Below are positions 9,059-28,663 of a DNA stretch of 46,257 nucleotides, in pieces. Where the stretch lies: the NCBI GenBank assembly GCA_947458405.1, contig CANGZW010000014.1:1-46257 (forward strand). The letters run 5' to 3'. Source of the stretch: Leptospiraceae bacterium (GTDB lineage Bacteria; Spirochaetota; Leptospiria; Leptospirales; Leptospiraceae). Position 1 is the stretch's first letter; every line of letters begins with the position of its first letter. Position numbers and translations under genes: made by a program. Below the pieces are notes generated by a model that did no database searches, was not told where the DNA came from, and saw only the letters and a list, made by a program, of their open reading frames with translations.

Positions 9059-9469
9059 TTAACTGCTAATAAGCAAACGACTGAGTTTATATCTGGCTAT
9101 TTTTTTATGAGCTTCTTTATCATAGGTAATCCAAACACCATTGATATACTCTGCAAGAGCAACATAAGCAGAATCATATCCTGATAAACCCAATCCCTGG
9201 AATTTATGAGTAATCTTTAAAATATCAGGTGTCAATGAAAAACGCTTCCAACCTAAATTCATTAAAAGATCGATTTGCTTTTTTTGTACGAAAGTTATCT
9301 TTCCCTGGATTCTAAATAAGACATGATTCAATTCATAAAAGAAAAGTTCGGGTACTACATAATTTTCAGGAGAATCTAAAATAGACTCCAATATCGTCAA
9401 TGCCTCCTCTGAATCTTTTTCATCGAGGAACCATTTAATGGCAAGTGATGCATCAGGAATCTCAATCAT
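9059..9469 (-). CDS. vapC: VapC-type PIN-domain toxin ribonuclease
   Basis: A 136-aa PIN-domain protein with the acidic metal-binding residues in place: D6 (IPDASLAIKWF), E46 (FFYELNHV), D99 (LSGYDSAYVALA) and D117 (TYDKEAH). VapC toxins are Mg-dependent RNases that cut tRNA or rRNA when not held by their antitoxin. The ATG lies within the last codons of the upstream antitoxin gene (8-base overlap), the usual layout of type II modules in which translation of toxin depends on antitoxin. All four acidic residues are present, so the toxin is probably active. Confidence 0.88.
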   Translation of the reverse strand: MIEIPDASLAIKWFLDEKDSEEALTILESILDSPENYVVPELFFYELNHVLFRIQGKITFVQKKQIDLLMNLGWKRFSLTPDILKITHKFQGLGLSGYDSAYVALAEYINGVWITYDKEAHKKIARYKLSRLLISS

Positions 9470-9719
9470 ACCGCAGTTTTCTGATTTCTTTCAGAGAATT
9501 TTTTTTTGACTTCACCAGATTTTTCCGAAACAAAGAGATGATTTCTTTTTTCTTCTCCCTCTCTCTATAGTCAATAAACCTATTTTGAAAGTCTTCGAGA
9601 GAAATGAGAACAGCTACGGGAGTTCTATTTTTTTCAATGATGATAGGTTCCCCTGATTCTTTTAAGGACTCCAGGACTCTCCCAAATTCATTTCGAATTT
9701 TTAATGCATTTACATTCAT
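9462..9719 (-). CDS. Phd/YefM-family antitoxin of the VapC module
   Basis: An 85-aa protein with the Phd/YefM fold signature: an N-terminal NALKIRNEFGRVLESLKESG helix-rich part, then EPIIIEKNRTPVAVLISLEDF. This region dimerises and binds DNA; the basic C-terminal tail (KKEIISLFRKNLVKSKKNS) would wrap and inhibit the toxin. It is paired with the overlapping VapC gene. Family precedent says the complex represses its own promoter; a TTGACA/TACACT promoter lies directly in front of the start codon. Confidence 0.87.
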   Translation of the reverse strand: MNVNALKIRNEFGRVLESLKESGEPIIIEKNRTPVAVLISLEDFQNRFIDYREREKKKEIISLFRKNLVKSKKNSLKEIRKLRYD

Positions 9720-11644: not shown

Positions 11645-11877
11645 ATGAATAAAGATTTATTACTAGAAATGTTATCTTATAAAAGTCCGGAAATTCTGAA
11701 GAAGTGGAAAACTGGTCAAAAAATTTTATAGTCAGTAAAATTGATAAATCCAAAAACATTCTTTTTATTGATGAATATAAAAATCGGTTTTACACTAAAC
11801 TCACTTCTTTGCAAAACTTAGAAAAGGGAAGTATGCGGATATTTCCCTCAACTAAAGCATCTTTTTTCCCTAGATGA
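11645..11877 (+). pseudogene. Small ORF apparently broken by a one-base frameshift
   Basis: An ATG at 11645 with a good AAGGG ribosome site opens 28 codons that end at a TAG (11729-11731). From about 11695 the next frame is open to a TGA at 11875-11877 and reads in coding style (SEEVENWSKNF, then KNILFIDEYKNRFYTKL). One extra A in the GGAAATTC run at about 11689-11696 would join both parts into one protein of about 77 aa. The product is not recognised. The 3' end overlaps the last codons of the DUF4143 ATPase gene on the other strand. It could be a chance pattern in AT-rich DNA. Confidence 0.35.
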
Positions 11878-12920
11878 ATTTGGTAAAATTTGGGGATATT
11901 GGTTCTGTCTCGAAAGTATTTTATATGGGGGGAAATTCCCTTTTCTCCTGTTTTACATTCAACTGCAAAAACTGGTTTCTTATTTTTTAATACTACAAAG
12001 TCTATCTCCCGTTTATCAGTATCTCGAATAAATCTAAGTTCCATTGAATCCCCTTCTGTATCTTCCAAATAATGGCAGTACTTCAGCAAATGACCAGCCA
12101 CAAAATTTTCAAATTTTGATCCCTCTGTACTACATGAACTCCAATCCCAAAGGTAGAGTTTTTTTTCTTTTTTAACAGCCCGAATTTTTGGAGCCCCGAA
12201 AGGCAAGATTCTAAAACAATAGTAAACTCTTTCTAAAATTGATATCCAGTTTTCAGCCGTTCTAAAGTTGACTTCCAAATCTTCAGATAGGGATTTTATG
12301 GATAAGGGTGATCCGATTCTTTCAGGTAGGGATTCTGCTAACAATTCAATAGAGGAATATTCTCTTAGATTTTCTATATCTCGAATGTCATCATTGATAA
12401 CTCGATAAAGCCTTTCTCTCGACCAAAGTTTCCATTCTTTTTCTGTACCATTCAAAAATGGTTCAGGAAAGCCTCCCAATTTTAATAAACTGCGAACATC
12501 CTCTAGGGAATGAATCTTTAGTTCCGGGATAGTAAGGGGATGAAGTCGAAGATAACGATATCTTCCAAGTAGGGAATCGCCACCCCTCCTATAATGATCC
12601 AATCTAGCTGATCCCGTGATGATATAGTTTTGCGAACCCTTATTGGTATCGTAATACCCTTTTAACAGAGATCTCCAGTTTTTAAATTTATGGATTTCAT
12701 CAAATAGAATTACTTTTTCATCGGGAAGTTCTCCTGATTTAATTATTTTTTTTGATTTCAGATTATCCCAATTCAAATAAGCTTTACTTTTATTATGAGG
12801 ATCTTTTAAAAAAGAGAGACAAAGTGTTGTCTTACCAACCTGCCTGGGTCCTCCCACAAAAACCATTCGTTTTTGTAAAAAATCAGATAAATCCTGTTTT
12901 AAGTATCGATCAATTGGCAT
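11790..12920 (-). CDS. AAA ATPase with C-terminal DUF4143 nuclease-like domain
   Basis: A 376-aa protein of the AAA_14/DUF4143 family. It has a Walker A FVGGPRQVGKTT (about 21-32), Walker B ILFDEIHKFKNW (71-82, D74 E75) and a sensor-like IITGSARLD. The C-terminal domain has the family's restriction-endonuclease-like core: EIDFVVLKNKKPVFAVECKTG contains a D-x(n)-ExK pattern. Members are common in bacteria and archaea, often in accessory regions; their role is not settled. The ATG at 12920 is needed to retain the N-terminal helix before Walker A. No ribosome site precedes it. Its putative promoter is overlaid by operator-like repeats (12939-13010), suggesting autoregulation or repression. Confidence 0.88.
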   Translation of the reverse strand: MPIDRYLKQDLSDFLQKRMVFVGGPRQVGKTTLCLSFLKDPHNKSKAYLNWDNLKSKKIIKSGELPDEKVILFDEIHKFKNWRSLLKGYYDTNKGSQNYIITGSARLDHYRRGGDSLLGRYRYLRLHPLTIPELKIHSLEDVRSLLKLGGFPEPFLNGTEKEWKLWSRERLYRVINDDIRDIENLREYSSIELLAESLPERIGSPLSIKSLSEDLEVNFRTAENWISILERVYYCFRILPFGAPKIRAVKKEKKLYLWDWSSCSTEGSKFENFVAGHLLKYCHYLEDTEGDSMELRFIRDTDKREIDFVVLKNKKPVFAVECKTGEKGISPHIKYFRDRTNIPKFYQIHLGKKDALVEGNIRILPFSKFCKEVSLV

Positions 12921-14480: not shown

Positions 14481-14753
14481 ATGAAAAAATCTAGAAAACC
14501 CACTCATCCAGGGGAAGTCTTTTACTATGATGTATTAGAGCCTTTGGGAATCTCGATTACAAATGCCTCCAAGCATCTGAGAGTCTCCAGAAAAACAGTT
14601 TCAGAACTTGTATCGGGTAAAATTTCTTTATCTCCACTCCTTGCGATTCGAATTGCAATGGTAACTAATACAACCTTCTCAAAAAAATATCCAAAACCTG
14701 AAATATTTCTCCTTACCCCCAAGTATATTCTCATAGAGAAAAATAACTTATGA
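14481..14753 (+). CDS. higA: HigA-type antitoxin (XRE helix-turn-helix), C-terminus possibly frameshifted
   Basis: A 90-aa protein that begins KKSRKPTHPGEVFYYDVLEPLGIS, the HigA signature, followed by an HTH (NASKHLRVSRKTVSELVSGK) and SPLLAIRIAMVTNTT. The usual HigA ending, of the TPEFWLNLQxxYDLW type, is absent. After NTT the frame reads FSKKYPKPEIF, whereas the +1 frame reads PSQKNIQNLKYF, closer to the family. A one-base deletion near 14676 is therefore likely. The DNA-binding half should still fold, so it could remain a repressor without a functional toxin. A GGAGCAG ribosome site precedes the ATG. Confidence 0.78.
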   Translation: MKKSRKPTHPGEVFYYDVLEPLGISITNASKHLRVSRKTVSELVSGKISLSPLLAIRIAMVTNTTFSKKYPKPEIFLLTPKYILIEKNNL

Positions 14754-17286: not shown

Positions 17287-20200
17287 TTATAAGAAATTAT
17301 ACTTTCGTTTGGATTTCTGAAGGTCTTTGATAGTATCAATAGTTGGACTCAACCAATCATCTATCAAAGGCATATCATCTCTTCCTTTAAAGAGCATATC
17401 TTTGTTGTAATTGGCAATTTCTGTGACTGTATTTATTTTTCTGGCTGTCTCAATTGATTTCCAATAGTTTTTGAGAGCTTGGGCAGTATTTCCTTTTCTC
17501 TCGTATATTGCACCAATATTGTTATACACAGCAATCAGAGTTTGGTAAATTTCTTGGTGTGTTGATTCTTCCGGTACTACAACTTGAATCTTAGCTTCCC
17601 TTTCTTCAAAATCATCCCTTAGCTTGAGATAATTCCCGAGACTTGCATTGATTTGGTCTGTGTAGTAATACGAGGAAGCTCTTCCCATCATAACATTAGG
17701 ATTCTCATAGCTATCTTCTTCTCCGAGGTTAGAAAAATCGGAAAGTGTTGCCTCATAGTCAGAATTCATATAATTGATCCAACCGGTATAGTAGTACAGC
17801 TCTCTGATTTTTTGGTCATCCTGAAGATTGTTTTTCACGGCTTTGTTAAAGAATGCTAAAGAATTGTTGAGATTATTTTTTCTCTCAATTTCCAATTCTG
17901 TGAGTTGCTTTGGATCATGCATAGGATACACTTTTCTTGCGGGAAACTCATCGACTCTATCATCCAAATTTACAAGTGCAGCACCCAGATAGATAATTTT
18001 ACCCATATTAAAGTAAATTCTGCCAATATCTCCCCGTAATAGGGTTTCGTCTTCTTCTCTGTTTCCAAAATTTTTATGAAATGCTTGGTATCTCTTTTCT
18101 GCGTTTTCTAATAGTTTCCAGGCTTCTTGGTTATTCTCCTGGCGAATATAATGCTCTGCCATTTCCATAACAGCTATATAGTGTGCGGGATCATAGTTTG
18201 CCGCAAGCTCGAACTGTTTGAGGGCCCGCATAGATTCATTTTTACCTATGTAGTACCTACCCCTCTGGTAGTACTGCTCTGCATACTCATCCCCGGAGAC
18301 TTCCATTCCATCCTGTTTTTCACTTCGATTGAATGCCAAATTCAAGATATGTATGATATTGTCATCTATATCCATATTGGTTACCTGATCCTCAGGAGTT
18401 ACATTGTATTTTATCCGGAGCTCGGTTGGATCGAGATCGATATAAAATGCCGCTAACTTTGACAATACAAAGAGAGAAAGATCGGACTCAATTTCCAAAG
18501 AATTTCTTACCTGTCTGTGGTGGTTTAACACAAACTGGGGATTCTTGTCCCTTCTCCACATTTCAATATATGTACTCAGTAATCCGCCATGTCCCTGAGG
18601 GTCTTTGGGATGAACTTCGATTATTTTATTGTAGTAGGAAGCCGCTTTTCCAAAACTTTCCTGGTTATAATAAATTTTGGCAAGACCTGCATTCGCCTCG
18701 GTGTTGGTGGGATCTCCTCCATCTGTGAACACCTGTCTATAATAGTTGATGGCTAATTGGTCATTTTTGTAAATCTGCCCATCTTCTCCACCTATAAACT
18801 TTTGGGCGATATTGGAGTGAAATCTACCTAAATTTATGAAAGTGTCATTATCATGAATTTTTTTGCCTAATTCGGCAACTATATAGGCACCTGCACGAAC
18901 AATTCTTCTCTCTACCTTATCCTGAGAAATCAATCGTAAATAGGTTCTTGGATCGGGATCATTGGTAGCCCCGTGTTGCAATTTTTCTTCATCCCAGGTC
19001 TGTCCGGGAGCAAGGGTTATGATGGGAACATCCACCCGATTGGACCAAAACCGAGAATGTTGGGGATCCGAAGATTCCATTCCATAGTCGGGTTCTACCT
19101 GTCCGAATAGCTTGATAAAAGACTGTTTGTACTCTCCTACCCTCATATAAGCCATTCCGTATTTATTCAGGTAATCCATATCATTTGGATTTATTTTTTC
19201 GCCCTGGTTAAAATTTCTTTCTGCGTTGGATAAAAGATCCCTTCTTCTATCCTGATTGGTTTCCACGCCCGCTTTTTTGATATCTTCCAATCCATCATTG
19301 TAGTAAGCTGCCGCACGCAATGGTTTGAAAATATATTTGTATCCCGAAACCAGACTGGTGATAAGTAGTATTGCGGCTGCGGCTCCGAATAGAGCTCTCT
19401 TTATTGTTTGTCTTCGCTCAAATTCCCCTTTTTTGGTATAAATTGGGTTTGAGGAAATGATTGGGATACCTTTATCAGAATAAAGTCCTGTGCTATCTTC
19501 TAATTCAACGGGGTATCCTAAGTGTTCTGTTAAATATGCCGCAATGTCTTCTGGCTTGGTAGATGCCTTGATTAACTCAATTAACTCCCTTTGCTCTTTG
19601 GGAGAAAGTTTATCCTTGGTAATGGAATCAATGACTGTTCGCTTGAGTTTGGGCGGATAGTGAATAATTTCTTGCTGAATGATAGCCAGTTCTTCGTCAG
19701 TTAATTCGGGGACGGTTTCATCCTCTTCCTCTTCCTCCCCTTCAAAACCAGCTAGGTCATCTTCATCAACATCTCCGAGACCTCCAATTCCGTCATCCTC
19801 GTCTGCAACCTCGGATACTTCCTCCTCATTGTCCGAAAATAAGTCATCGGAAGACTGGGCATCTTCTTGGGGAGAGCCAGCATCAGAATCGCCGAAAATA
19901 TCATCGGAATCAGAAAGGGAAGATGACTCTTCATCAAGGGCAGGTGGTTCGTATTCTTCTCCCCCTAGATCAGGAACGGATTCTTCCATATCCAGATCAT
20001 CCATTTCAGCCAATGGGTCAGCTACCTCAGATTCGGTTTCTGTATCTAAATCATCCATTCCCGCTAATGGATCGGGCTCTTCTTCTTCCCCAAAATCAGG
20101 TTGTATAGGAGGAGCTTGTGCGAATGGATCCTCTCCTCCAAAATCAGTCGCTCCGGATTTCGATGAGCCAAGATCGGCAAAGGGATCTTCCTCTTCTTCT

Positions 20201-20832
20201 GGATCTGTTCCCAAATCAGGAGTTACATTGGCAAATGGGTCTTCTTCTGCTACAGGTTCTTCGTCGAAGGAAGGTATTTCTTCTTCATCAAAATTGGGAG
20301 TCTCTATTTCTTCAGAAACAGGTTCTTCGTCGAAGGAAGGTATTTCTTCTTCATCAAAATTGGGAGTCTCTATTTCTTCAGAAACAGGTTCTTCATCGAA
20401 GGAAGGAATCTCTTCTTCATCAAAATTGGGAGTCTCTATTTCTTCAGAAACAGGTTCTTCGTCAAAAGAAGGAATCTCATCTTCATCAACAGGCGGTTCT
20501 ACTTCTAAGTCTAGGGAATCTTCATCTTCTTCTCCGGGCTCTTTTTCTTTCCCGAGGGAATCTATATCTACATCTAAAAGATCATCTATGGAGTCATCAT
20601 CTTCGTCAAAGTTTTTAAACTCAGGCGGTTCCTCTCCTGGTGGATTATCCTCAAAATTAATTCCACCATCTCCTTCTTCAACGGGAGGTGCCTCTTCAGG
20701 CTCAGGTTCACCCTTAATTTTACGTAATACCTTCCCCATTGGGTTTAAGCTTTCTGTTACAATGGGATTTTCATTGAGGGGATTGAGAATTTCTCTAATT
20801 CTGCCTAATTCTTCGTCGCTGTACTTTGCCAT
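17287..20832 (-). CDS. Large acidic TPR membrane protein (possible periplasmic flagellar collar component)
   Basis: A 1181-aa protein. The first 370 residues or so are extremely acidic and repetitive, including 22-residue units around EEIPSFDEEPVSEEIETPNF. A single membrane helix (ALFGAAAAILLITSLVSGY, about 480-498) follows, and the rest is alpha-helical with many TPR-type repeats, for example GLAKIYYNQESFGKAASYYN, MRALKQFELAANYDPAHY and YNNIGAIYERKGNTAQALK. Topology suggests an acidic cytoplasmic part and a periplasmic TPR part. TPR membrane proteins in Borrelia (the FlcA-type collar proteins) surround the periplasmic flagellar motor. Position near motAB-fliL and overall design make a similar role possible but unproven. 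It is monocistronic by layout. Confidence 0.85.
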   Translation of the reverse strand: MAKYSDEELGRIREILNPLNENPIVTESLNPMGKVLRKIKGEPEPEEAPPVEEGDGGINFEDNPPGEEPPEFKNFDEDDDSIDDLLDVDIDSLGKEKEPGEEDEDSLDLEVEPPVDEDEIPSFDEEPVSEEIETPNFDEEEIPSFDEEPVSEEIETPNFDEEEIPSFDEEPVSEEIETPNFDEEEIPSFDEEPVAEEDPFANVTPDLGTDPEEEEDPFADLGSSKSGATDFGGEDPFAQAPPIQPDFGEEEEPDPLAGMDDLDTETESEVADPLAEMDDLDMEESVPDLGGEEYEPPALDEESSSLSDSDDIFGDSDAGSPQEDAQSSDDLFSDNEEEVSEVADEDDGIGGLGDVDEDDLAGFEGEEEEEDETVPELTDEELAIIQQEIIHYPPKLKRTVIDSITKDKLSPKEQRELIELIKASTKPEDIAAYLTEHLGYPVELEDSTGLYSDKGIPIISSNPIYTKKGEFERRQTIKRALFGAAAAILLITSLVSGYKYIFKPLRAAAYYNDGLEDIKKAGVETNQDRRRDLLSNAERNFNQGEKINPNDMDYLNKYGMAYMRVGEYKQSFIKLFGQVEPDYGMESSDPQHSRFWSNRVDVPIITLAPGQTWDEEKLQHGATNDPDPRTYLRLISQDKVERRIVRAGAYIVAELGKKIHDNDTFINLGRFHSNIAQKFIGGEDGQIYKNDQLAINYYRQVFTDGGDPTNTEANAGLAKIYYNQESFGKAASYYNKIIEVHPKDPQGHGGLLSTYIEMWRRDKNPQFVLNHHRQVRNSLEIESDLSLFVLSKLAAFYIDLDPTELRIKYNVTPEDQVTNMDIDDNIIHILNLAFNRSEKQDGMEVSGDEYAEQYYQRGRYYIGKNESMRALKQFELAANYDPAHYIAVMEMAEHYIRQENNQEAWKLLENAEKRYQAFHKNFGNREEDETLLRGDIGRIYFNMGKIIYLGAALVNLDDRVDEFPARKVYPMHDPKQLTELEIERKNNLNNSLAFFNKAVKNNLQDDQKIRELYYYTGWINYMNSDYEATLSDFSNLGEEDSYENPNVMMGRASSYYYTDQINASLGNYLKLRDDFEEREAKIQVVVPEESTHQEIYQTLIAVYNNIGAIYERKGNTAQALKNYWKSIETARKINTVTEIANYNKDMLFKGRDDMPLIDDWLSPTIDTIKDLQKSKRKYNFL
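20252..20490 (-). repeat. 66-bp in-gene tandem repeat, about 3.6 copies
   Basis: Units beginning ACAGGTTCTTC (plus strand) start at 20252, 20318, 20384 and 20450. The period is exactly 66 bases, or 22 codons, with only a few silent changes between copies, so copy number can change without frame loss. They encode the acidic Pro/Glu/Ser-rich repeats of the TPR protein. Near identity at the DNA level points to recent duplication. Confidence 0.9.
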
Positions 20833-21212
20833 ATGAGTCTCTTTTCGAGTATCGGTTAAAGTTATAATTAGTTCAATAGATTTTTCTTATGTCATATTTA
20901 CTTCATATGCTTTTTAATTGATTTACTTTTAGTTGTAAATACTCTGCGGCTCGCCTCGATCTTACTAAAAAATTGACAGGGCAGCCAGTTGGCAACTTGG
21001 GTTAAAGCCCAAACCCGATTATTCATAATCATCTTACGCTAAGTAGATTCTTTTACTCTGTTGAAAATAAAAAGTATCACTAAAAAAAAACAGATTTATA
21101 GGAAAAACGTTACATAATTTTATTATTCCGTTCGAAATTAGGCGTAGATGCCGATAGTATAAAAAGGGTTGTTTTTACTCTGTCCAATCAAATTAAGGGT
21201 TCATTTCTAGAT
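20833..21212. other. 380-base intergenic region with a chain of small hairpins
   Basis: This divergent spacer between the TPR gene and the E-set gene has no ORF of note. A locally GC-richer part holds successive perfect inverted repeats: GCCA/TGGC (20984-20993), TTGGG/CCCAA (20997-21012), which competes with an overlapping GGGTT/AACCC pairing, GATTAT/ATAATC (21017-21030) and CTTA/TAAG (21033-21043). A GCCGATAG at 21150-21157 looks like a sigma-28 -10 box but the matching -35 is poor. The chain could be a small RNA or a protein-binding region. Confidence 0.4.
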
Positions 21213-22112
21213 ATGACCGAACATAAAAAAATAAATAAATTCAAATACACAATTATCATATTAATCTCTCTGTTTTCTCTCGGAAGTTTATTTAGCGAAG
21301 AGGCAATGGACTGGTTAGGGTCCTATTCCTCTCGAGAATTAGAAGGTGCAATAGACAGGGATAATACTTTAAATAAAATATACTATTATTGGCAAATACA
21401 GAGTTTAAAAAGAGCCGTTTCTCCTAGATATATAAGACTGATAGATATAGACAATTACGTTGTTAATTACACTTTATTAAACAAAGGTATTTTTTTCACC
21501 TACAATGGACTGCGAAATGAACAGGTGGAAGTCTGTGGAAATTTTTCCAATTGGCACTGTACTCCAATGCAGAGAAATCGATATGGAATTTATTATGCAG
21601 TAATTCCTCCCGTGTTCAAAGACAAGGATGATAAAGAGAGAAATGTTTTTGAATATAAATTTAGGGTAGATGGTATTTTTGAATACGATCCAGCAAATCC
21701 AGAAAAGACAGAAGATGGAGAAGGCTCTTTCTATTCCATTTATACTCTGCCCGGCAAAGACTTTGAAAAGCAACTTACTTACAGAATAATAGATAGCGAA
21801 TTAGACAATGACCTGGATTTCAAGATGGTGGAATTTAGAATTTATGTACCCGAAGCCAATACTATTGCCCTAGTAGGGGATTTTAATCAGTGGAATCCCG
21901 AACACGACTACCTCGTCAAAGAGCCTACAGGATTGTTCGTATTGAAGAAAAAATTAAAACCCGGGGAATATCTTTATAATTTCATTATTGATGGACAAAC
22001 CTCTCTTGATACCTTCAATTCTGAGACTAGATACCGGGTTGAAACAGATGATTTATGTTCTTACCTTAGAATATCCTATGGTAGAGAAAATAGAATTGTA
22101 GCTGATAAATAA
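21213..22112 (+). CDS. Exported protein with two CBM48/AMPK-type E-set domains
   Basis: A 299-aa protein with an N-terminal signal segment (IIILISLFSLGSLFSEEAM). Two copies of the glycogen-binding-type E-set fold follow: the first around EQVEVCGNFSNWHCTPMQRN with FEYKFRVDG and DPANP (about 105-180), the second around NTIALVGDFNQWNPEHDYLV with GEYLYNFIIDG (about 220-290). The NxW and YxF...DG landmarks are those of CBM48 and AMPK-beta modules that bind alpha-glucans or serve as interaction modules. No catalytic domain is present. The exported location makes glycogen an unlikely partner, so surface glycan or protein binding is more plausible. The role is inferred. Confidence 0.75.
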   Translation: MTEHKKINKFKYTIIILISLFSLGSLFSEEAMDWLGSYSSRELEGAIDRDNTLNKIYYYWQIQSLKRAVSPRYIRLIDIDNYVVNYTLLNKGIFFTYNGLRNEQVEVCGNFSNWHCTPMQRNRYGIYYAVIPPVFKDKDDKERNVFEYKFRVDGIFEYDPANPEKTEDGEGSFYSIYTLPGKDFEKQLTYRIIDSELDNDLDFKMVEFRIYVPEANTIALVGDFNQWNPEHDYLVKEPTGLFVLKKKLKPGEYLYNFIIDGQTSLDTFNSETRYRVETDDLCSYLRISYGRENRIVADK

Positions 22113-26494: not shown

Positions 26495-27025
26495 TTAGTT
26501 TACAATAAATTCTCGGAAGTAAACTTCCTTCACTTTTCCATTGGTAAGAATATGATTGATATGGGCTTTGATTTCTTCTCGCAAATCAAGTTGATCAGCA
26601 ATAGTCTTCAATTCTTCTTTATTCTTTTTGGAAATAATTAAGTTTATAATGTTTTGCATTTGTGGTAGTCTTTCCGCCAACTCAGCAGTCAAAGCAGGTT
26701 GCCCTTTTTCCACACCAAAAGAAAGCTTTAACTTAATAAAGTGAGCTTCTCCCACATCCGAAGTGTTGATACGAAACTCATCCTGAAAGTTAAAAACATC
26801 TAGGGGAGGAGGAGCTTTTACCAGAGCAATATTTTTTTGTTGCTTATAAACACTTGTTGCGGCCTTTTGTGCTACGAAAGTAGACACCACTGCTACTATT
26901 ATAATACCAAGTATACCTGCGGCTACATAGATAAGGTATTTGATGATCGGAGAGGCTTTTTTCGGTTCCTCCGACGCTTTCCCTTCTTCTTCTTGCTCGT
27001 CTACTTTTTCTGCTGCATCACCCAT
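26495..27025 (-). CDS. fliL: Flagellar basal body-associated protein FliL
   Basis: A 176-aa single-span membrane protein. The N-terminus is charged and cytoplasmic (EEEGKASEEPKKASP), the helix is IIKYLIYVAAGILGIIIVAVVSTFVAQ (about 27-53), and the periplasmic domain holds the FliL/stomatin-like core (FINTSDVGEAHFIKLKLSFG-like stretch, LPQMQNIINLIISKKNKEEL, then VYFREFIVN at the end). FliL stabilises the stator units and, in spirochaetes, affects periplasmic flagellar orientation. It is the last gene of the flbD-motA-motB-fliL run and starts 15 bases after motB. Confidence 0.93.
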   Translation of the reverse strand: MGDAAEKVDEQEEEGKASEEPKKASPIIKYLIYVAAGILGIIIVAVVSTFVAQKAATSVYKQQKNIALVKAPPPLDVFNFQDEFRINTSDVGEAHFIKLKLSFGVEKGQPALTAELAERLPQMQNIINLIISKKNKEELKTIADQLDLREEIKAHINHILTNGKVKEVYFREFIVN

Positions 27026-27040: not shown

Positions 27041-27868
27041 TTATTCCTCTCCCTCTACAGAATTTTCTGTATTGGGTAATTTTGTGTCGGGAAGTTTATA
27101 CCCGCTCTGGTGTGGAGATCGCTTCATACTTTTTTCAGCTACCACCACGAGATCAATTCTTCTGTTGAATGCACGGGATTCGGGACTTCCTTCCATTTCT
27201 ATAGCCAATGGTCTAGAAGAACCATAACTGATAGCTGTGAGCATTCCCGGCTCCATCTTACCTGCATTTATTAAAAATACCGTTGCATTGACCGCTCTTG
27301 CCGCGGCCAAATCCCAATTATTTATGTATTCCCTTTCTTCTCTCGCTAAATTAGACCCCGGCAAAACTGCCTGGTCATCACTATGTCCTTCCACTTTGAC
27401 GAATCTATCCAATTCGCGTAGGAATCCACCCGCTTTTTTTAAGGTATCCCGAATGGGAGGAAGAAGCATTGCTGAGGCTGGGTTAAAATAATCTGCACCC
27501 ACTAGAGAAATCACAAGACCACGCTCATCTTCGGATACCCGAACTTTTCCCTGTTGGATTTCTGATTTGAATACCTGAGTGGCATCTTTTTTTGCCTTGG
27601 AAATCCTTTTCCCTTTGGTGGGAGAAGGCAAACTCTCTATATTCATTCCCATTTGTTCGAGAGATCCCTTAGAAAGTGTATTTCCTCCATCAAAGAAACC
27701 TGTGGAAGACTTGAAAACGGAGAGGATGATCTGCATTTCTTGCTGATTCGTCTTACCTGTGGAATACAGGAGTACGAAAAAGCACATGAGCAGAGTCACC
27801 ATGTCCCCGTAGGTAAGCATGTACTCGGGAACTTTCTGAACGCAATCGGGACACTTTTGTTTTGCCAT
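27041..27868 (-). CDS. motB: Flagellar stator protein MotB
   Basis: A 275-aa stator subunit. The N-terminus PDCVQKVPEYMLTYGDMVTLLMCFFVLLYST contains the membrane helix with the proton-carrying Asp22. The plug region follows, and the C-terminal OmpA-like peptidoglycan-binding domain is seen in KVEGHSDDQAV, NWDLAAARAVNATVFLI and SPESRAFNRRIDLVVV. It couples ion flow to flagellar rotation and anchors the stator to the cell wall. It starts 9 bases after motA, in the usual motAB order. Confidence 0.96.
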   Translation of the reverse strand: MAKQKCPDCVQKVPEYMLTYGDMVTLLMCFFVLLYSTGKTNQQEMQIILSVFKSSTGFFDGGNTLSKGSLEQMGMNIESLPSPTKGKRISKAKKDATQVFKSEIQQGKVRVSEDERGLVISLVGADYFNPASAMLLPPIRDTLKKAGGFLRELDRFVKVEGHSDDQAVLPGSNLAREEREYINNWDLAAARAVNATVFLINAGKMEPGMLTAISYGSSRPLAIEMEGSPESRAFNRRIDLVVVAEKSMKRSPHQSGYKLPDTKLPNTENSVEGEE

Positions 27869-27877
27869 TTTGGTTTC

Positions 27878-28663
27878 CTACTCTTTCGCGTCTTCTTTGA
27901 GAGCTGCTCTTTCCAAAGGAGATAGATAACTGGATAGTTTTTCTTTTACAATACGGGGGTTATCTCCAGACTGAATGGAGAGCGTTCCCTCAATCATGAC
28001 CTGTTGCATTGCCAATTCATCTTCACTTCTTCTGGAGAGTTTTTTAACAAAAGGAATAGCAAACATATTCGCGAGAAGAGACCCGTACAGAGTTGTAATC
28101 AAAGCCGCCGCCATCCCCGAACCGATCGCCGAAGAGTCCCCACTACCTAAGTTTTGAAGCATCGCCACAAGTCCGATCAAGGTTCCCAACATCCCGAACC
28201 CAGGAGCGAGTGAACCGAGAGCATCCCACCAGTTAATACCAATTTTATGACGTCCACCCATGTTCCCCATTTCGGTTTCCATGATATTACGAACTAATTC
28301 TGGATCTGTTCCATCCACAACCAACTGGATTCCTTTCTTTAAAAATTCAAACGGAAGCTCATTAACATCATCTTCCAGAGCCAAAAGACCCTCTCTACGG
28401 GCTTTTTCAGAGAATGACACAAGAGTTGTAATTAAACCCTGCATATCAAATTTATCCGGGAAGAATACTTTACGGGATACTTTTCCTATCCCTAGGGTTG
28501 TTTCCCATGGATGGGCAATAATGGTACCAGCCACTCCCCCTCCGACCGTAATCAGAAGTGATGGAACGTCAAAAAGACTTCCGAGCCCCACCCCGGCGGT
28601 AATAACCCCCAAACCAAGTACCCCAAAACCTAAACCTAAGCCAATAAGTGTCCCCAGATCCAT
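27878..28663 (-). CDS. motA: Flagellar stator protein MotA
   Basis: A 261-aa four-helix stator subunit. Visible landmarks are LGLGFGVLGLGVITAGV (helix 1), DVPSLLITVGGGVAGTIIAHPW (helix 2), the cytoplasmic loop with SEKARREGLLALEDDVNELP, and helices 3-4 with WWDALGSLAPGFGMLGTLIGLVAMLQNL and GMAAALITTLYGSLLAN. The conserved Pro before helix 3 is present. The ATG follows the flbD stop immediately. Co-transcribed with motB and fliL. Confidence 0.97.
   Translation of the reverse strand: MDLGTLIGLGLGFGVLGLGVITAGVGLGSLFDVPSLLITVGGGVAGTIIAHPWETTLGIGKVSRKVFFPDKFDMQGLITTLVSFSEKARREGLLALEDDVNELPFEFLKKGIQLVVDGTDPELVRNIMETEMGNMGGRHKIGINWWDALGSLAPGFGMLGTLIGLVAMLQNLGSGDSSAIGSGMAAALITTLYGSLLANMFAIPFVKKLSRRSEDELAMQQVMIEGTLSIQSGDNPRIVKEKLSSYLSPLERAALKEDAKE

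Follow-up and report, generated by a model that had tools for sequence, protein, structure and literature searches.

The closest described system is the flagellar collar protein FlcA of Borrelia. According to the available text of PMC11750108, fitting placed the FlcA TPR domain in 16 S-shaped densities along the edge of the collar, FliL and MotB are interaction partners of FlcA, and one class of motors loses its stators when flcA is mutated. Large collar densities are left unassigned in the same text. A length of 931 residues for the Borrelia burgdorferi protein BB0326 is implied by the wording 'aa 360 to 931' in the accessible part of PMC8609358. In Leptospira interrogans, LIC11990 was termed 'TPR-repeat-containing proteins/cytoplasmic membrane protein' in the available text of PMC2387172. 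The PDB entry 8ebf is titled 'C-terminal (TPR) domain of LIC11990 from Leptospira interrogans', and its molecule name is 'Cytoplasmic membrane protein'; FlcA is not named there.

The window analysed here is the whole stretch of 46,257 nucleotides from a Leptospiraceae bacterium (assembly GCA_947458405.1, contig CANGZW010000014.1). An uninterrupted ATG open reading frame on the minus strand occupies exactly 17287-20832, and encodes 1181 amino acids (Table 1). This gene is very probably the flcA orthologue of the Leptospiraceae bacterium, i.e. the Leptospira-group version of the known collar protein FlcA. FlcA itself was known already; the Leptospiraceae orthologue extends the known protein to the Leptospira class. 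An earlier, sequence-only reading of this DNA had described an acidic tail, one helix, and a TPR array, and this layout was confirmed by the charge counts, the hydropathy scan, and the Pfam domains. The region N-terminal of the TM helix contains 34% D+E and 5.6% K+R. Within it, the linker (341 residues) has 144 acidic versus 4 basic residues, and residues 382-479 have a net charge of +1. The 19-residue Kyte-Doolittle scan (cut 1.6) gave one hydrophobic segment above the cut, residues 480-498. Pfam TPR_19, TPR_16, and TPR_14 scored above their cut-offs C-terminal of this helix, where about 680 residues form TPR-type helices. Since the C-terminal TPR domain is periplasmic in Borrelia, the acidic arm should be cytoplasmic. 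A 385-aa open reading frame on the plus strand (19679-20836) was rejected as a real gene; it mirrors the acidic repeat of flcA on the reverse strand.

Structure prediction, which the same reading had proposed as a check, gave an AlphaFold model of residues 382-1181 with a mean pLDDT of 88.2. The model superimposes on 8ebf with a Z score of 48.7 and an rmsd of 4.5 (645 aligned residues, 52% identity), and phmmer matched residues 480-1172 to the same entry with an E-value of 5.3e-220. The fold search otherwise identified other TPR proteins (Z 19.9 and lower), as expected for this fold; apart from 8ebf, none of the fold matches listed was recognisable as FlcA or another collar protein.

Table 1. 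Features of the flcA locus and related genes in the window.
Feature	Position	Strand	Description
flcA orthologue (very probable), whole gene	17287..20832	-	1181 aa; NCBIfam profile, nearest-genome matches, profile-profile comparison with FlcA
N-terminal tip, residues 1-40	20713..20832	-	net charge +1; short helix-like motif EELxxIxxxLxPL, a form common to relatives
Acidic low-complexity linker, residues 41-381	19690..20712	-	net charge -140
66-bp tandem repeat, 3.6 copies, within the acidic linker	20252..20489	-	
Cytoplasmic helical domain, residues 382-479	19396..19689	-	conserved to BB0326
Single transmembrane helix, residues 480-498	19339..19395	-	hydropathy and structure model
Periplasmic TPR superhelix, residues 499-1181	17290..19338	-	matches PDB 8ebf
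Divergent CBM48-type neighbour	21213..22112	+	299-aa product with a predicted signal helix and domains of the CBM48/AMPK1_CBM type; candidate for association with the collar
Gap between the two divergent start codons	20833..21212	.	380 bp; promoter scan
fliL	26495..27025	-	probable binding partner, as judged from Borrelia; nearness to flcA not conserved
motB	27041..27868	-	above NCBIfam cut-off; probable binding partner, as for fliL; nearness to flcA not conserved
motA	27878..28663	-	linkage to flcA not conserved

The best family for the 1181-aa protein is NCBIfam NF047371 (FlcA_CTERM), with an E-value of 3.2e-41 and 141.5 bits, and both parts of the model match colinearly. The score is below the curated naming cut-off of 300 bits, so the protein is not filed under this model and counts as a homologue only. 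In the other genomes of the class within the phylum sample, the E-values were no better than 7.9e-31. The gene is single copy in its own genome, where the next best NF047371 locus was found at 1.8e-9. At E 0.001 the model also gave matches in 11 of 14 control genomes; at 1e-20 it gave none. Because NF047371 also responds to TPRs, homology was tested apart from the TPRs. For alignment A1, 24 of the 41 nearest genomes supplied homologues within the window's class; alignment A3 consists of 13 FlcA sequences from families other than the window's; L078 was excluded from alignment A2 due to a stop within its translation. One member of A3 (L130) was authenticated as BB0326 by its 931-aa frame and an exact match of the published BB0326 primer. 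Profile-profile comparison of A1 with A3 gave a probability of 100 and an E-value of 4.6e-44 over 607 columns, with 17% identity. The cytoplasmic domain and TM helix alone, with the TPRs excluded, matched the BB0326-type FlcA with a probability of 99.1 and an E-value of 7.5e-19 over 129 columns. As a control, an unrelated TPR protein encoded in this genome matched A1 in TPR stretches only (E 6.7e-7), and A3 at 3.9e-13, again within the TPRs. The 1181-aa protein and BB0326/FlcA are homologous over the full length. The suggestion of a candidate collar component was therefore upheld by profile similarity to FlcA that includes the non-TPR cytoplasmic and membrane part. In plain A1 profile searches, the flcA locus was the best match in four genomes (G155, G066, G162, and G087); the flcA loci of the BB0326 genome (G195) and of G075 were missed at E 0.01, with generic TPR loci only.

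A match is encoded in all 41 of the nearest genomes, mostly with 30-65% identity, so the open reading frame is no product of chance. The phylum sample comprised 294 Spirochaetota genomes, with a requested completeness of at least 90. NF047371 at 1e-20 identified 237 of these genomes (178 of them above the cut-off), A1 at 1e-10 identified 133, and FliG (TIGR00207) was found in 267. Combining the lists by hand, with seven of the FliG-negative genomes deduced by elimination, the FlcA family is present in 259 of 267 FliG-positive and in 0 of 27 FliG-negative genomes. Homologues in non-flagellated bacteria, which would have spoken against the collar assignment, were thus looked for in these 27 Spirochaetota genomes and none was found. 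The eight FliG-positive genomes in which the family was not found are G037, G050, G059, G084, G140, G213, G253, and G264. Three of them (G140, G213, and G264; f38, g75) belong to one genus and have weaker FliG scores; they are possibly mid-way through flagellar loss. In the genome collection, the named long matches are from Spirochaetota or unclassified MAGs, and matches from other phyla are short and TPR-sized. As far as sampled, the FlcA family is restricted to flagellated spirochetes.

The acidic N-terminal part was compared among relatives. One TM helix above the cut was found in 39/39 and 48/50 homologue frames of two sets. The linker comparison used 62 of 90 sequences, with the 5'-open frames and a duplicate of the window protein left out; two of the rows kept are unreliable (L030 with masked residues, and L031 truncated). 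By a fixed cut, the linkers of these 62 full-length frames have 130-435 residues and net charges of -20 to -159, and the window linker is the most acid-rich (D+E 0.42). These acidic linkers of variable length indicate that FlcA proteins generally have such an N-terminal part, as does BB0326. The description of the protein as giant and unusually large did not hold: 12 of the 62 full-length homologues are larger, the window protein ranks thirteenth, and open frames of homologues reach 1595 codons. The idea of an expandable acidic part fits the 66-bp tandem repeat. The N-terminal tips of the relatives are helix-like, and occur in two recurring forms; the tip may serve for docking, with the charged linker as its tether. 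The idea that acidic-hydrophobic motifs are enriched in the linkers was rejected, as 175 were observed versus 277 in shuffles, i.e. the motifs are depleted.

The location of flcA within 6 kb of motAB-fliL had also been put forward for a collar role. The distance is correct here (flcA start at 20832 and fliL end at 26495, with unrelated genes between), but it carries no weight as support. A tblastn search with MotA, MotB, and FliL of the window found none of them in the 37 retrieved loci, many of which have 10-kb flanks; the nearness to flcA is therefore local. Other genes in the window include a PIN-domain protein preceded by a Phd/YefM-type antitoxin (9059-9719), together a type II toxin-antitoxin pair; a small HTH_3 protein (14481-14753), which lacks an evident toxin partner next to it and which we take to resemble a HigA-type antitoxin; and an AAA_14 + DUF4143 ATPase (11790-12920). 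ATPases of the latter type are often found in variable regions.

The gene divergent to flcA encodes a protein with an N-terminal hydrophobic helix. Pfam AMPK1_CBM and CBM_48 were matched above the gathering scores (57.6 vs 26.8 and 49.2 vs 22.4 bits), no catalytic domain was found by Pfam, and the fold matches are CBM48 and AMPK glycogen-binding domains, with Z scores up to 14.6. The gene is single copy in its own genome. A sigma-70-type shared promoter in the gap was rejected, as the scan found no sigma-70-like site. A CBM48-type gene lies upstream of flcA in 27 of the 37 retrieved loci, i.e. in all 27 loci with room; in the other 10, the retrieved DNA starts at most 1032 bases before the match and leaves no room for a neighbour. 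Outside the class, 81 FlcA-bearing genomes with a known place of flcA were chosen by hand, mostly one per genus, and are a non-random set. A CBM48-type match was found in all 81 (25/25 at E 0.01 and 56/56 at 1e-6), and in 61 of them the gene is adjacent and divergent to flcA. Adjacency was defined as opposite strands, 5' ends facing, and match edges less than 3.5 kb apart, a span that also takes in the N-terminal part of flcA (0.9-2 kb); a paralogue may account for the top CBM48 match in the 20 genomes lacking adjacency. The match is absent from 9 of 10 FliG-negative genomes, and the other one (G208) has a partial match of 75 residues. In two Borrelia-type genomes, the CBM48-type gene lies 10-11 kb from flcA on the same strand. 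Its flanking frames in G195 are taken to be oppF and enolase, which makes it probably BB0336/P26. Searches for BB0336, or for the flagellar collar together with a carbohydrate-binding module, gave no match in the main texts of the literature searched. In two CBM48-type proteins encoded far from flcA (L161 and L162, from genomes G066 and G058, presumably Brachyspira-like), the signal helix is followed by a lipobox-like cysteine, which suggests membrane anchoring. The neighbour was also considered as FlcC. This was rejected, since the authentic FlcC (L183, exact primer) has no CBM48 domain, and the CBM48-type gene of that genome is located elsewhere. Eight candidate genes were screened according to the accessible part of PMC8609358, and the CBM48-type gene may have been one of them.

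The conserved adjacency, in 27 of 27 loci with room and 61 of 81 genomes, makes the CBM48-type protein a candidate additional collar protein, and it may be an unrecognised part of the collar. The evidence is evenly balanced with another explanation, in which the neighbour is tied to flcA by the shared promoter region only and serves an unrelated purpose, e.g. the binding of glucans. Known CBM48 domains include binders of alpha-glucans, and the 20 genomes without adjacency agree with this explanation; the match in every FlcA-bearing genome of the set, the single partial match among FliG-negative genomes, and the lack of a catalytic domain argue against it. A broader collar-pair model is possible but somewhat doubtful. 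In this model, flcA and the divergent CBM48-type gene would be an ancient, spirochete-wide collar pair, the exported two-domain protein would fill part of the unassigned density, and FlcA, by way of its negative cytoplasmic arm and conserved tip, would connect the periplasmic collar across the membrane with a motor partner in the cytoplasm.

By homology, the window protein should act as Borrelia FlcA does, with a collar location and stator binding. As in the Borrelia experiments of others, the FlcA copies would form a ring along the outer rim of the periplasmic collar, and their TPR arms would contact FliL and MotB and hold the stator units in position. On our own proposal, the acidic linker would be a flexible cytoplasmic arm, repelled by the membrane, by which the conserved tip reaches a partner; the product of the divergent CBM48-type gene would act together with FlcA in the periplasm. 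Other collar proteins were searched for. FlbB was found in the same genome (178.2 bits vs a cut-off of 110), as was a homologue of FlcD (BB0236) on another contig (C53; 2.0e-29). FlcC was undetected with the primer-authenticated query (L183) in the same genome and in the genomes of the class tested, and none of FlbB, FlcD, and FlcC was found in the FliG-negative G228. In a relative (G001), about 3 kb separate the FlcD homologue (C2:550950-552959) from flcA (C2:555836-558220), a possible second linkage of collar genes.

A FlcA descendant with a changed role in the Leptospira class, e.g. with the collar anchored to another partner and the stator contact lost, appears unlikely. The failure to find FlcC in the tested genomes of the class, the score below the naming cut-off, and the low identity to the BB0326-type sequences are in line with such a change; however, MotB and FliL are present, as are FlbB and FlcD, the architecture is unchanged, and the pairing of flcA with the CBM48-type gene persists across classes. 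Far less probable still is a generic TPR membrane scaffold, FlcA-like through its repeats only and serving another envelope process: weak matches to TPR families of other systems (PilW 2.2e-7, PrsT 7.5e-7, and MamA 8.3e-6) and the NF047371 matches in control genomes at the loose threshold would fit it, but the non-TPR part alone matches the BB0326-type FlcA, the controls are empty at the strict threshold, and the family tracks FliG.

The assignment as a flcA orthologue has two consequences. With FlcA extended to the Leptospira class, the solved TPR structure of LIC11990 can be interpreted as that of a collar component and located within motor maps. The divergent CBM48-type protein is a named, single-copy candidate for the large collar densities that are unassigned in the available text of PMC11750108.

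In comparison with known systems, the window protein and the FlcA of Borrelia burgdorferi share the same organization: an acidic N-terminal part, a cytoplasmic helical domain, one TM helix, and a periplasmic TPR domain. The window protein is longer (1181 vs 931 residues), and by one fixed cut its linker has 334 residues and a net charge of -136, versus 193 residues and -43 in BB0326. The CBM48-type gene adjoins flcA divergently here, whereas it is about 11 kb away on the same strand in the BB0326 genome. FlcB (BB0058) is, according to the accessible part of PMC8609358, also a collar protein with TPRs, but has an N-terminal signal peptide. The window protein instead has an internal TM helix after 479 residues as its sole hydrophobic segment, and identity with FlcB was rejected. 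LIC11990 of Leptospira interrogans, a species other than that of the window, provides the solved C-terminal TPR domain (8ebf).
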